Assembly: GCF_039696035.1 (NCBI RefSeq)
Contig: NZ_CP155567.1
Location: 186,001-250,000 of the forward strand
Length of the DNA stretch: 64,000 nt
Source: Microbulbifer sp. SAOS-129_SWC
GTDB taxonomy: Bacteria > Pseudomonadota > Gammaproteobacteria > Pseudomonadales > Cellvibrionaceae
Direction of reading: 5' to 3'
The notes beneath the pieces are model-generated. The model worked only from the letters and a program-made list of their open reading frames with translations, had not been told where the DNA came from and made no database searches. A program made the translations under genes and the position numbers. Of the stretch, positions 1 through 5,024 are shown in pieces (the first letter of the stretch is position 1; every line of letters starts with the position of its first letter).

Positions 1-564
1 GGCATTGTTGGTCTCGATCCCGCCTTTCAGATAGACGGTGCCCTCCTGGTGTTCTTTCCTGAAGCGCGATGCGATCTGATCGTACTTGGAGAGATCCAGG
101 TTGATGATCTGGTATTGCCCGGGCTGATTGCTATCGCGCCCGGCCGGTGCCGTTTGCAGCAATTGTCCGGGCAGGTATCCGGCCTCGGTCAGCAGGTAGA
201 GGCAGATCTGCGCGACGTGGGTGCCGGTGGTGATATGTACCAGGTAATTTTCCCGGTTGGGTTCGAACGGATAGCCGCGGGCGAAATCCAGCAGCTGGCT
301 GTACACCGTCTCGAAATCCCACGGGTCCCCGAAGTTTACCCGGTGGTGGACCACCTCAGTCTCCGGCGATACGCGCGCAATATCCTCGGTCACCTGGTTG
401 GCCAGGCCCTGGGAATGGTTGTCGAACAACAGCTCCAGCCGGTCGATCAGCAGATCCTCGTGCTGGAACATGGAAACCGTCGGCCGCCACTTGTCCCAGC
501 GCTTGTCGCCCTTGCCGCGCCGATCCATGGTGGTGCCGAGAATACTGATAGCCACTGTTTTCAT
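1..564 (-). CDS. rtcR: RtcR, sigma-54-dependent regulator of RNA repair (N-terminal part only)
   Basis: Reading the minus strand from the ATG at 564 gives 188 codons that run off the left edge. The start MKTVAISILGTT and the block RWDKWRPTVSMFQHEDLLID are typical of RtcR. Only the N-terminal ligand-sensing domain is present, which in this family is a CARF-type Rossmann domain; the AAA+ and HTH domains lie outside the window. RtcR is the enhancer-binding activator of rtcBA with sigma-54, and in enterobacteria is reported to respond to RNA ends from cleaved tRNA. It is divergent from rtcB, 220 bases away, the usual arrangement. The family call is firm; the ligand here is inferred. Confidence 0.93.
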   Translation of the reverse strand, partial: MKTVAISILGTTMDRRGKGDKRWDKWRPTVSMFQHEDLLIDRLELLFDNHSQGLANQVTEDIARVSPETEVVHHRVNFGDPWDFETVYSQLLDFARGYPFEPNRENYLVHITTGTHVAQICLYLLTEAGYLPGQLLQTAPAGRDSNQPGQYQIINLDLSKYDQIASRFRKEHQEGTVYLKGGIETNNA

Positions 565-710
565 GGTTATCAAATATATTATTAAGATATCGAAAAAGAT
601 AGATTTTGAAAGGTTGGGGTTCAGATTGGTCTGTTTAAATAATCGCCATAAAATTAAATAAATGTATATATATCAATGGGTTAAATAAAATTCTGATGCC
701 TTGTGAAAAG

Positions 711-728
711 TTGGCACCTTCCTCGCAT
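711..728 (+). promoter_or_regulatory. Sigma-54 promoter for rtcBA
   Basis: TTGGCAC, five bases, then TCGCA: the -24 GG and -12 GC are separated by exactly 10 bases. One base departs from the consensus TTGCA. It lies 57 bases before the rtcB start and faces rtcB. The AT-rich stretch at 565-710 would hold RtcR upstream sites, but I cannot define them. Confidence 0.85.
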
Positions 729-784
729 TACAGGGGCAACGCAAAAGCGAATAACACAAAACGGATTTGAACAAGGGAAGAGCA

Positions 785-2011
785 ATGACTCAGCAAGCGT
801 ATGAAGTGATGCAGGATGGCGGTGTACCGATCAAGTCCTGGACCGTCGGGGTGCCTTTCGAAGACGAGGCCAAACAGCAGCTGAAAAATATTTCGCGCAT
901 GCCGTTTATCCACCAGTGGGTGGCGGCGATGCCGGACGTTCACCTGGGTAAGGGGGCCACCATCGGCAGTGTGGTGCCGACGCTGGGTGCGGTGATTCCC
1001 GCCGCCGTGGGTGTGGATATCGGCTGCGGCATGATGGCGGTGCGCACCAGCATCAAGGCATCGCAATTGCCGGACAACCTGGCTGCAGTGCGCTCGGCGA
1101 TTGAGCGCGCGGTACCCCACGGCCGTTCGGCGCGCAACCGGGGCAGCCGCGACAAGGGTGCCTGGAGCAATGTACCGGACGATGTGATGAGCGCCTGGGC
1201 GCCGCTGGCGACACAGTTTGATGTGTTGCAGGAAAAGCACCCCCTGCTGAGGAAAACCAACAACATCAACCACCTGGGAACCCTGGGAACGGGCAACCAC
1301 TTTATCGAGATGTGCGTGGATGAACACGGCAGTGTCTGGCTGATGCTGCACAGCGGGTCCCGCGGTGTAGGTAACCGGATCGGTACGCATTTTATCGAGA
1401 TGGCCAAAAAGGATATGGAGCGCTGGCATATCCATTTGCCGGATTCCGATCTGGCCTATCTGCCGGAGGGAACCGAACACTTCGACCAGTACGTGGAAGC
1501 CGTGGAGTGGGCGCAGAATTTTGCCCGCATCAACCGCGAAGTGATGATGGCGCGCGTGATCAGGGCCGTGAAAGAGTCGCTGGGAATGGACTTCGAGGTG
1601 CGCATGGAGGCGGTGAACTGTCACCATAACTATGTGTCCCGCGAGCACCATTTCGGTAAGGATGTGCTGGTTACCCGCAAAGGCGCGGTGCGCGCCCGAG
1701 AGGGGGAGATGGGGATTATTCCGGGCAGCATGGGCGCGCGCTCCTTTATCGTTCGCGGGCTCGGCAACAGTGAAAGCTTCTGCAGTTGCAGCCATGGCGC
1801 CGGGCGGGTGATGTCGCGCACCAGGGCCAAGAAACTGGTATCACTGGACGAGCACCTGCAGGCAACCGCCGACGTGGAGTGCCGCAAAGACGCCGATGTC
1901 ATCGATGAAACACCGGCGGCTTACAAGCCGATTGAAAAGGTGATGGCGGCGCAGAAAGACCTGGTGGAAATCGTGTACACCCTGAAGCAGGTAGTGTGTG
2001 TGAAGGGATAG
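785..2011 (+). CDS. rtcB: RtcB, RNA-splicing ligase (3'-phosphate/5'-OH RNA ligase)
   Basis: 408 residues, the usual length for E. coli-type RtcB. RtcB is a GTP- and Mn-dependent ligase that joins RNA 3'-phosphate or 2',3'-cyclic phosphate ends to 5'-OH ends. Visible signatures are MPDVHLGKGATIG near residue 50, the metal-binding VDIGCG with Cys81, GTGNHFIE, HSGSRGVG, and SHGAGR, whose His is the guanylylated residue in the family. I chose the ATG at 785 because GGGAAG lies just upstream; an in-frame TTG at 767 would add six residues. It is first in the sigma-54 operon, with rtcA following 46 bases later. Confidence 0.97.
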   Translation: MTQQAYEVMQDGGVPIKSWTVGVPFEDEAKQQLKNISRMPFIHQWVAAMPDVHLGKGATIGSVVPTLGAVIPAAVGVDIGCGMMAVRTSIKASQLPDNLAAVRSAIERAVPHGRSARNRGSRDKGAWSNVPDDVMSAWAPLATQFDVLQEKHPLLRKTNNINHLGTLGTGNHFIEMCVDEHGSVWLMLHSGSRGVGNRIGTHFIEMAKKDMERWHIHLPDSDLAYLPEGTEHFDQYVEAVEWAQNFARINREVMMARVIRAVKESLGMDFEVRMEAVNCHHNYVSREHHFGKDVLVTRKGAVRAREGEMGIIPGSMGARSFIVRGLGNSESFCSCSHGAGRVMSRTRAKKLVSLDEHLQATADVECRKDADVIDETPAAYKPIEKVMAAQKDLVEIVYTLKQVVCVKG

Positions 2012-2057
2012 AGGTAGACGGATTAGAGGAATTAGAGAGATCAGAGGGAATAGCAGG

Positions 2058-3484: not shown

Positions 3485-3501
3485 AGGGCCAAGGCCCTTT
3501 T
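3485..3501 (+). terminator. Intrinsic terminator after the tRNA-like RNAs
   Basis: AGGGC (3485-3489), loop CAAG, GCCCT (3494-3498), then a short T run to 3501. It would end the non-coding RNA before the slipin gene, perhaps partially. The short stem and T tract make it modest in strength. Confidence 0.6.
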
Positions 3502-3801
3502 GTGTATCGGAGGCCCACAGACCCTAAATGCCGTCAAACCGTTTCCCTCGGGAAAGGAGCGCCAGCATTTCGGGCACCGGAAACGCAGACGCCGCCGGTG
3601 GGCAACATTGCACGTCGTTCAGTCATACCGAATTCGCCGGCAGTGTGGTGCAGCGCTGCTGTCGCAGCGCCCGAAACGCCGGCCGATTCAGTCAATGACG
3701 ATACAACCTGCTCTGTTCAAGCCGTCGTCCTCCGCGTTTCCGGGTGGGCCTCACCTTTATCGCCATTGCGGGTAAAGGAAATCAAGAGAAGGATAAATAC
3801 A
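3502..3801. other. Leader region before the slipin gene, no gene seen
   Basis: An open frame runs through here in phase with the slipin gene, but it also crosses the tRNA-like elements and its sequence is not protein-like. Visible structure: a 7-pair hairpin GCGCTGC/GCAGCGC (3653-3670) with loop TGTC, and a TTTCCC/GGGAAA hairpin near 3542. These may belong to a further RNA or a leader. No convincing promoter was identified. Confidence 0.5.
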
Positions 3802-4959
3802 GTGGTTATATGGAAATGTATCGATATAGCGGATAACGAGCGCGCCTTCCTGTTCCGCAGGAATCGCTTTGTACGTGTGCTGGAAGCGGGCCGCTACCGC
3901 GTTATGCGGCTGGCCGGTAAAACCCGCGTCGAGATCCACGATATCAGCGATGTACTGTTCAAGCGGCCCAACGCCAAATTTTTGCTCAACAGCCATGCGG
4001 AAAAACTGGAGCCGTATATCGAATCCCATGAATTGACGGATACCCAGGTCGGCCTGCTGTACCGCGATGGCCACCTGGCGGATATCCTGCCGCCGGGCAC
4101 CTTTCTGCCGGTGTGGAAAAGTGTGGAGCAGGTCCGTGTGGATATCGTTGATATCAGTGAGCACTACACTATTGATGAAAAACTCGTGCGCCTGCTCGGT
4201 CGCGGTTCGAAAGTGGGTAAAACCACTGTTGCTGCGTCTGCGGTGCACTATATCGAAGTGCCAGACGAGTATGTGGGTCTGCTCACCGTCAACGGCAAGC
4301 TGGAACAGCGTCTGGCACCGGGAAGCTACGGCTTCTGGAAGTACAACCGCTCAATCGGGGTGCAGCTTGTGGATCTGCGCTTGCAGACGGTGGAGGTCGG
4401 CGGCCAGGAAATCCTGACCAAAGACCGGGTGAGCCTGCGCATCAACCTGAGCGCCAGTTACAAGGTGCTGGATCCGGAAAGGGTTGTGCTGAAGCTCGGC
4501 AACTATGCCGAGTTTATCTACCGGGAACTCCAGCTGCGCCTGCGCGAGGCAGTGGGTACCCGCAGTCTTGACGAGTTGTTGGAGGACAAGGACAGCCTGA
4601 ACGTCGGCATCGTCAGCAATGTGCGTGAAAAACTGGCCCATTACGGTATTGAAATTGGGACCGTGGGAGTGAAAGACATCATACTGCCGGGTGATATGAA
4701 GCAGATTCTCAATCAGGTGGTAGAGGCCCAGAAGGAGTCCGAAGCCAACCTGATCAAGCGCCGGGAAGAAACCCAGGCGATGCGATCGCTGCATAACACC
4801 GCCAAGATGATGGAAAACAGTCCGGTGCTGATGCGATTGAAGGAGCTTGAGGCTCTCGAAAGAGTGACTGAGCGGATCGGCAATATTTCCGTCTACGGTG
4901 GCCTGGACGGAGTCTTGAATGATCTGGTGAAGTTGCGCCCTTCCGCTACATCGCCATAA
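3802..4959 (+). CDS. SPFH/band-7 (slipin-family) protein of the RNA-repair operon
   Basis: 385 residues from a GTG start at 3802, chosen for GAAGGA eight bases upstream and because the frame further upstream overlaps the tRNA-like RNAs. Residues from about 150 onward form an SPFH domain (VHYIEVPDEYVGLLTVNG, RINLSASYKV, YGIEIGTVGVKDIILP), followed by a charged helical tail. The first 150 residues hold two more units resembling the SPFH entry strand (about 12-49 and 80-119), making three tandem copies with that at 155-193. There is no N-terminal membrane segment, unusual for slipins. Slipin genes have been noted beside rtcBA in other bacteria. Role unknown; a scaffold near membranes or RNA is inference. 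Confidence 0.85.
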   Translation: MVIWKCIDIADNERAFLFRRNRFVRVLEAGRYRVMRLAGKTRVEIHDISDVLFKRPNAKFLLNSHAEKLEPYIESHELTDTQVGLLYRDGHLADILPPGTFLPVWKSVEQVRVDIVDISEHYTIDEKLVRLLGRGSKVGKTTVAASAVHYIEVPDEYVGLLTVNGKLEQRLAPGSYGFWKYNRSIGVQLVDLRLQTVEVGGQEILTKDRVSLRINLSASYKVLDPERVVLKLGNYAEFIYRELQLRLREAVGTRSLDELLEDKDSLNVGIVSNVREKLAHYGIEIGTVGVKDIILPGDMKQILNQVVEAQKESEANLIKRREETQAMRSLHNTAKMMENSPVLMRLKELEALERVTERIGNISVYGGLDGVLNDLVKLRPSATSP

Positions 4960-4960
4960 A

Positions 4961-4988
4961 AAACCCGCCCCCTGGGGCGGGTTTTTTA
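4961..4988. terminator. Bidirectional intrinsic terminator
   Basis: CCCGCCCC (4964-4971) and GGGGCGGG (4974-4981) form a GC-only stem, with A's before and six T's after. It lies between the convergent slipin and C13 peptidase genes and can serve both strands. Confidence 0.92.
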
Positions 4989-5024
4989 CTCATAGAGATC
5001 TTCGCCGCTGAACGGCTGGTGCGT

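Follow-up and report, generated by a model that had tools for sequence, protein, structure and literature searches.

An RNA of about 500 nucleotides with tRNA-like parts and its SPFH partner gene in an RtcR-type RNA-repair operon

A structured RNA with tRNA-like parts in an RtcR-type operon

The first five kilobases of a 64,000-nucleotide stretch of the Microbulbifer sp. SAOS-129_SWC genome (contig NZ_CP155567.1, positions 186,001 to 250,000; hereafter the window) hold an RNA-repair operon that includes a structured RNA and an SPFH gene. The gene order given in a preliminary description of the sequence, namely rtcR, a sigma-54-like site, rtcB, rtcA, tRNA-like RNA, an SPFH gene and a final terminator, was confirmed by Pfam matches, a consensus match and reading of the sequence. 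The window begins within rtcR, whose N-terminal, CARF-type part runs off it (1–573, minus strand; PF06956, E 1.4e-84); the whole rtcR open reading frame (ORF) has 534 amino acids (locus L001, 451–2055). A −24/−12-like site of the sigma-54 type, TGGCACCTTCCTCGCA (712–727, plus strand), is predicted from the sequence alone and agrees at 10 of 11 positions with the consensus. It is followed on the same strand by rtcB for the RNA ligase (785–2011; PF01139, E 1.6e-133) and rtcA for the RNA 3'-phosphate cyclase (2058–3068; PF01137, E 2.3e-77; NF003246 above its cut-off). Divergent rtcR together with rtcB and rtcA is the arrangement by which an RtcR-controlled rtcBA operon is recognized. Separated from rtcA by 733 nt lies an SPFH/Band-7 gene of the slipin family (3802–4959, plus strand; GTG start, 385 amino acids), whose Pfam match (PF01145, E 6.7e-31) was obtained with a longer ORF (3241–4959). 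A strong intrinsic terminator read from the sequence (4958–4987) closes the operon; it is missing from the output of a pattern scan, which probably counted its A-U pairs as stem. A Band-7 gene, a tRNA-like RNA and RtcB occur together in this operon, and the absence of rsr, the gene of a Ro60 (TROVE) protein, which the preliminary description had remarked on, holds genome-wide: in the one 4.63-Mb contig of this genome there were no TROVE matches at E ≤ 1e-3, with the control search positive in 1 of 14 genomes.

Between rtcA and the SPFH gene, covariation over 26 and over 33 relatives predicts a noncoding RNA of about 500 nt with 20 helices (3255–3754, plus strand). When the whole stretch was aligned for 13 loci of the bacterial family, conservation reached far past the tRNA-like part. 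RNAalifold placed 137 pairs in 33 sequences, and 90 of these pairs show changes on both sides in at least two sequences. A second alignment, comprising 26 of the 33 sequences after seven near relatives were left out, gave 128 pairs in 20 helices with 89.8% of cells paired, compared to 74.3 ± 0.5 in 500 shuffles, which ignore relatedness. The number of double-change cells was 586 compared to 201 ± 13, a value reached by 0/500 shuffles, and the covariation score was 0.485 compared to 0.205. Sliding the fold by 1–3 columns lowered pairing to 37–42%, a comparison in which the fold is favoured since it was derived from the same alignment. Despite both caveats, the excess of covariation over the shuffles is very large, and the predicted fold is, as judged from these alignments, under selection.

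The RNA starts with a 5' domain (3255–3352, plus strand), in which P1 (3255–3261/3346–3352) and P2 (3270–3275/3333–3338) enclose P3, P4 and P5; compensatory changes were found in 18 of 27 pairs over 43 relatives, a count that includes the D-arm. Next comes a tRNA-like cloverleaf with the 6-nt anticodon loop UAUACA and no CCA (3355–3426, plus strand), matched by the Rfam tRNA model with 49.6 bits (E 1.3e-7, calculated over the whole window) and listed by ARAGORN without an assigned amino acid. With a loop of 6 nt instead of 7 and no CCA end, it is not what is expected of a functional tRNA gene. Then follow a free anticodon-arm-like hairpin, GTCGT-CTTTTAA-ACGAC (3428–3444, plus strand; helix 9, 86.0% of cells paired in the fold of 26 relatives), whose loop CUUUUAA with its UUU triplet we take to be that of Lys tRNAs, and, within 3456–3482 on the same strand, a small hairpin GGCGAAAGCC (helix 10) and a T-arm-like hairpin GGGGUUCAAGUCCCC (3468–3482; helix 11). 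The large 3' domain (3510–3752, plus strand) is closed by a long-range stem of 9 bp (3510–3518/3744–3752; helix 12), in which 97.4% of cells are paired and 6 of 9 pairs show changes on both sides.

The tRNA-like arms claimed in the preliminary description are borne out, both by the Rfam tRNA match at 3355–3426 and by covariation across relatives, and they are conserved; the refuting outcome named there, arms that are not conserved in related genomes, did not occur. Its division into two small tRNA-like modules followed by a terminator survives in part: the cloverleaf and the hairpins are there, but the terminator is not, and the size is wrong, one RNA of about 500 nt taking the place of the modules. 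For the internal terminator, the pattern scan gave a weak site only (stem 3485–3498), the U-run is gone in five relatives (L006–L010) and the conserved RNA runs on to about 3754. The stem mistaken for a terminator (3484–3500, plus strand) appears in the first fold of 33 relatives, where five pairs are kept in 18–27 of the 26–28 sequences with letters there; it was left out of the second fold. A coding reading was also considered, as a 572-amino-acid ORF crosses the RNA into the slipin gene. It was rejected because the open frames at the slipin gene vary between 372 and 572 amino acids among relatives and the sequence follows the RNA fold. Of the Rfam 15 families, RF00005 (tRNA) alone reaches its gathering score in the window, so that only the tRNA part is recognized; the same holds for 19 relatives, where some of the matches are ordinary tRNAs. 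No Y RNA family is among these matches, the presence of a Yrl model in Rfam 15 being unchecked.

The loops were surveyed in 71 RNAs (46 from the family and 25 others). A parser found 81 cloverleaf units in 70 of them, the RNA of L036 being degenerate. By its count, 60 RNAs have one unit, nine have two and one (L131) has three in tandem; second units that it missed are visible by eye in L049, L119 and L125. The cloverleaf body is near-invariant (GCTC 79/81, GAGC 78/81, D-loop GG 81/81, T-loop TTC 81/81), although the parser requires or favours these very motifs. The anticodon loops, on the other hand, differ in sequence and length, with 7 nt in 49/81 units and another length in 32/81. The commonest 7-nt loop, CUCAUAA (14/49), is presumably that of Met-type tRNAs, and 15/49 of these loops carry A34, which is hardly used by bacterial tRNAs. 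CCA is encoded by 14/81 units and missing from 67/81, and Rfam tRNA scores among relatives reach 69.5 bits.

After the last cloverleaf, many RNAs have the free hairpin of five pairs and a 7-nt loop; it passes the threshold in 38/70, of which one (L117) is really a T-arm and two (L130, L134) are doubtful. Its loop keeps C32 (34/38), U33 (30/38) and A37 (34/38), while positions 34–35 carry 0.11 and 0.04 bits; without the three questionable cases the values are 34/35, 29/35 and 33/35, with 0.14 and 0.05 bits. This is the pattern that selection for the shape of an anticodon loop, regardless of the triplet, would leave. In the cloverleaf, loop exchange is seen between relatives, as the units of L008, L009 and L010 have identical bodies and different loops. 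Among close relatives with short loops, the four pairs L008/L009, L003/L006, L016/L020 and L004/L007 together show 7 changes in 21 loop sites, counted by hand with a length change taken as 2, compared to 0.19–0.23 changes per 4-fold site of the slipin gene (one-sided binomial p 0.13 for the loop excess); another four close pairs (L037/L038, L021/L023, L113/L114, L012/L013) show no loop differences. Over these eight close pairs, no diversifying selection on the anticodon loop was found relative to slipin 4-fold sites.

Pairing of the RNA with the SPFH gene

A search of the family detected the slipin at E ≤ 1e-40 at 49 places in 48/144 genomes, and a motif search recovered a tRNA-like region at 46 of these places. 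A covariance model (R1) built from the 5' domain and D-arm was applied to sets of genomes from the order, class and phylum, which overlap. The RNA was detected at ≥ 40 bits in 17/390 genomes across the order, at ≥ 43 bits in 13/369 across the class, and at E ≤ 1e-6 (≥ 41 bits) in 6/398 across the phylum, one of these outside the class; ordinary tRNAs reach about 37 bits with R1. Loci outside the family were then fetched from the results for the order and the class, 23 of them at ≥ 40 bits and four at 34–37 bits; matches below 34 bits were set aside. Two of the low-scoring ones (L121 and L135; 35.2 and 36.7 bits) read as ordinary tRNAs and were dropped. In 24 of the remaining 25 loci the slipin lies downstream of the RNA; in L133 another ORF intervenes.

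A slipin profile was also run against named genomes, and the best 80 of 568 relatives, Betaproteobacteria included, were taken as named loci; the slipins with 80–85% identity to that of the window come from Microbulbifer. R1 reached ≥ 45 bits on the slipin strand in 64/80 and 33–37 bits in three more, several of the 80 being genomes from which R1 was built. Three loci were too short for the parser. In the other 77, a cloverleaf was found at most 900 nt upstream of the slipin in 76, compared to 0/77 after shuffling the same sequence, with a parser tuned on the earlier RNAs; the outer units in L192 and L193 may be ordinary tRNA genes. Downstream stretches, whose number was not recorded, gave no cloverleaf. 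In these genomes, the predicted RNA accompanies this SPFH subfamily almost without exception, and the two are genetically paired across Gamma- and Betaproteobacteria. In phages, no slipin matches were found at E ≤ 1e-10.

Thirteen loci were examined for a sigma-54-like site in the stretch from the upstream gene to the slipin; all 13 have one that matches the consensus at 9 or more of 11 positions, and in 11 of them it matches at 10. These loci were picked for their arrangement, with the RNA directly after rtcR (11) or at the enterobacterial rluF-lysC locus (2), and 11 of the 13 sites had already been noticed by eye when they were counted. As a background, the 80 named loci, 896,953 bases in all, hold 46 sites with at least 10 positions on one strand, the counted sites included. 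The sites point to the RNA as a possible first product of an RtcR-type promoter, and they support its belonging to RtcR-type operons.

In the SPFH protein, the core matches stomatin (3bk6) over profile positions 189–356 (E 6.7e-29), and no best match of the profile search covers the first 144 positions. The N-terminal half contains tandem repeats of about 44 amino acids (encoded at 3820–4389); the first–second and second–third repeat scores were reached by 0/2000 shuffles and the first–third score by 258/2000. By hydropathy, the protein has no membrane-type segment (highest 19-residue value 0.89), and among relatives 0/74 sequences of set A3 exceed 1.6, the highest value being 1.52. A membrane scaffold is therefore unlikely. 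Of the interpretation offered in the preliminary description, the arms, the association of RNA and SPFH gene and the RtcR-type operons are supported; the two small mimics with a terminator are not.

Neighbouring genes and the enterobacterial relative

For the 80 named loci, flanks of up to 6 kb, some shorter, were fetched. Within them, rtcB lies near the RNA-slipin pair in about two thirds (52/80), together with rtcR and rtcA in 27. Other neighbours are RlaP (16/80), a CCA-type nucleotidyltransferase (7/80) and a PrfH-type factor (RF-1; 3/80). Immediately upstream of the RNA and on its strand, 20/80 loci have a gene for a small HNH_5 endonuclease, as do L035 (5688–6323), L110 (8987–9547) and L137 (7698–8363); the arrangement occurs in Gamma- and Betaproteobacteria. 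L110, L137 and L147 are RNA-repair islands around the pair with varying gene sets, including RtcB copies of two types, RlaP copies, a CCA-type nucleotidyltransferase, a PrfH-type factor and a HEAT-repeat protein. L110 also encodes a 314-amino-acid protein (2971–3912, minus strand) that has no Pfam or PADLOC match and relatives near the pair in 6/80 loci. Seven proteins were compared with the PADLOC defence library: the slipin and RtcB of the window, the slipin and RlaP of E. coli and the 314-amino-acid protein gave no match, HNH models of the PtuB type and of other types matched the HNH protein of L110 (best E 3.2e-9), and a single Cas3 model matched the CCA-type protein (4.9e-4). In the window itself, the gene adjoining the operon (5025–6599, minus strand) encodes a protein that combines MORN repeats with a peptidase C13 domain.

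E. coli carries a slipin of about 44% identity and an RlaP gene between rluF and lysC, and in Citrobacter freundii rtcR adjoins the slipin-RlaP pair. The E. coli form with its sigma-54-like site was found in 1624/5426 complete genomes, in 1617 of which the match covers most of the query, and carriers include E. coli W and IAI1. Slipin, RlaP and the sigma-54-like site lie at 8542–10781 in L234, 2858–4782 in L237 and 4358–7244 in L236; a zeta-toxin-family gene is next after slipin-RlaP in strains WAT and W. The stretch from the sigma-54-like site to the slipin is about 315 nt long in E. coli and keeps a T-arm-like hairpin.

Known systems and possible roles

Band-7 genes with a "novel tRNA-like molecule" in RNA-repair systems have reportedly been described by Burroughs and Aravind in 2016 (Nucleic Acids Res.), and the pairing of Band-7 gene and tRNA-like RNA is therefore not new in itself. 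The modules described there are said to share the Band-7 gene, the tRNA-like RNA and a neighbourhood of RtcB-type repair genes. Here, the tRNA-like part is one domain of a covarying RNA of about 500 nt; with it come an anticodon-arm hairpin, tandem cloverleafs (three at most) and sigma-54-like sites, features that may in part be covered by that paper as well. Our search of the literature on RtcB, slipin/SPFH, Band-7, Ro60, anticodon nuclease and RtcR, which did not extend to that paper, found no such RNA-slipin system. Two articles on related systems (PMC6514570, PMC7824862) have neither "SPFH" nor "slipin" in their text, and a third (PMC7159879) has SPFH, Band-7 and the 2016 title in its reference list only.

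The SPFH core is common to stomatin/slipin, HflK and QmcA, whose structures are solved, whereas the window protein has no membrane-type segment and carries the N-terminal repeats. The vault particle consists of major vault protein (MVP), vault RNA and a TROVE subunit. A repeat region, an SPFH-like part and an RNA partner are alike in both, a resemblance only, known here from genes, and MVP is absent among the 21 profile-search matches of the window protein. The Salmonella rsr-yrlBA-rtcBA operon, as described by Hughes et al. 2020 (PMC7790460), shares RtcR, RtcB, RtcA and operon RNAs, one with a tRNA-like part; here, an SPFH gene stands instead of Rsr/Ro60, there is no TROVE gene and the RNA has about 500 nt. 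The same article leaves the role of the operon-encoded RNAs open for Salmonella. The RtcB2-PrfH operon of E. coli, which by the title of the report protects from colicin E3 (PMC9223846), is absent from the window operon; a second RtcB type and a PrfH-type RF-1 adjoin the RNA-slipin pair in few loci.

Starting from the operon, the RNA fold, the RNA-protein pairing and the sigma-54-like sites, all legible in the sequences, we infer a ribonucleoprotein (RNP), its clients and its benefit. Our preferred reading, held tentatively and at somewhat less than an even chance, is a damage-induced RNA-repair operon with the noncoding RNA as its fourth product, acting with the SPFH protein as an RNP. Broken tRNAs would activate RtcR, as published for Salmonella, where RtcR senses 5' tRNA halves with a 2',3'-cyclic phosphate (PMC7790460). 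RtcR would then switch on rtcBA, the RNA and the SPFH protein, and SPFH subunits would assemble with the RNA. Through its cloverleaf, free anticodon arm and T-arm, the RNA would display generic tRNA elbows and anticodon arms. Enzymes that act on anticodon arms may dock there or be kept occupied: RNases that cut tRNAs would be baited, and RtcB/RtcA and nucleotidyltransferases would be brought together as clients.

Several observations weigh against this reading. In 28/80 named loci, none of rtcB, rtcA and rtcR was seen in the fetched flanks, which is why the RNA-slipin pair may work without RtcB. Ten neighbours were scanned, nine of them from loci without nearby rtcB, and none falls into a known family of RNA repair (MutS, subtilase, STAS/CheW, HipA-like, ankyrin, ammonium transporter, metallo-beta-lactamase and three without a match); the tRNase Z match of the metallo-beta-lactamase is below threshold. 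At 3/49 slipin places of the family there is no usable RNA upstream, L005 having none, L026 a 3' remnant only and L042 being cut by the contig end; L036 is degenerate. The short variable loops (4–6 nt) in the clade of the window fit a canonical anticodon mimic poorly. In the short RNA of E. coli and Citrobacter, R1 and ARAGORN find nothing; in an alignment of nine such sequences, breaking changes outnumber compensatory ones and the predicted fold is broken at many pairs. In view of these negative searches and many breaking changes, it is at most a candidate homologue of the ~500-nt RNA.

The RNA may alternatively be a pure decoy, whose cloverleaf and anticodon hairpin compete as substrates of tRNA-cleaving toxins and thereby spare the real tRNAs, which we hold to be unlikely. 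The Met-type loop, CUCAUAA, being the commonest of the 7-nt loops, and the presumed Lys-type UUU loop in the second hairpin of the window would fit such a function. The frequent A34 and the loops of other lengths stand against it, the loops are not clearly faster than slipin 4-fold sites, and a simple decoy of one tRNA fits neither the 6-nt loop of the window cloverleaf nor the common A34 loops. According to PMC7790460, VapC and colicin D, which cut the anticodon loops of tRNA-Met and tRNA-Arg, activate the E. coli rtc operon, and the decoy idea is put forward for YrlA, whose tRNA-like part could compete for the nuclease; yet YrlA was no substrate, and its fragments were unseen in Salmonella.

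A cis-acting leader is a comparably unlikely explanation. Here the RNA would be the 5' untranslated region of the slipin gene and would control its expression by being cleaved or resealed, or through the slipin protein binding to it. The position of the RNA upstream of the slipin in 76/77 loci, also where rtcA precedes or follows the slipin, and the gap of 47 nt in the window are consistent with this, but leader and trans-acting readings predict the same synteny. In our judgement, the size of the RNA and its up to three tandem cloverleafs (L131) exceed the needs of known leaders.

A particle like Ro or the vault is a rather doubtful extension of the RNP reading: a soluble SPFH protein with N-terminal repeats would form a ring or cage around the RNA, as a general trap and repair platform, induced by RtcR, for broken tRNAs and the enzymes that cut tRNAs, with a relative in about 30% of complete E. 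coli genomes. Its exchangeable arms would keep the anticodon-loop shape while the triplet changes.

Signal amplification appears improbable. The RNA would be cut in its anticodon-like loops, the cyclic-phosphate fragments would bind RtcR, and resealing by RtcB would stop the signal. The binding of 5' tRNA halves with cyclic phosphate by RtcR (PMC7790460) and the binding of RtcAB, which are needed for activation, to the RtcR CARF domain (PMC9650030) would agree with it. However, a cloverleaf embedded in a 500-nt RNA needs processing to yield a free 5' half, and RNA-SPFH pairs also occur without rtcR/rtcB in the fetched flanks.

Reserve tRNAs, matured from the cloverleafs and used in translation, are very improbable: the Rfam scores of up to 69.5 bits and the CCA of 14/81 units would suit them, but most units have no CCA, 32/81 have no 7-nt loop and the window unit has a loop of 6 nt. 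A Y RNA-like partner of a Ro60 protein, suggested by the Rsr and Yrl RNAs of the Salmonella rtcBA operon with the tRNA-like domain of YrlA (PMC7790460), is hardly credible here, where the genome has no TROVE protein at E ≤ 1e-3 and the partner is an SPFH protein; barring a diverged Ro protein, it is refuted in this genome.

The RNA is now defined by a fold backed by covariation, a protein partner that is nearly constant and specified loop positions that can be mutated. To ARAGORN and Rfam, its cloverleaf looks like an unusual tRNA, and the other parts escape them. The slipin-RlaP pair in E. coli W would give experimental access to a related system in a laboratory strain. Together with the RNP reading, which we favour tentatively, these findings point to an RNA-protein partner of RNA repair in bacteria that has received little study.

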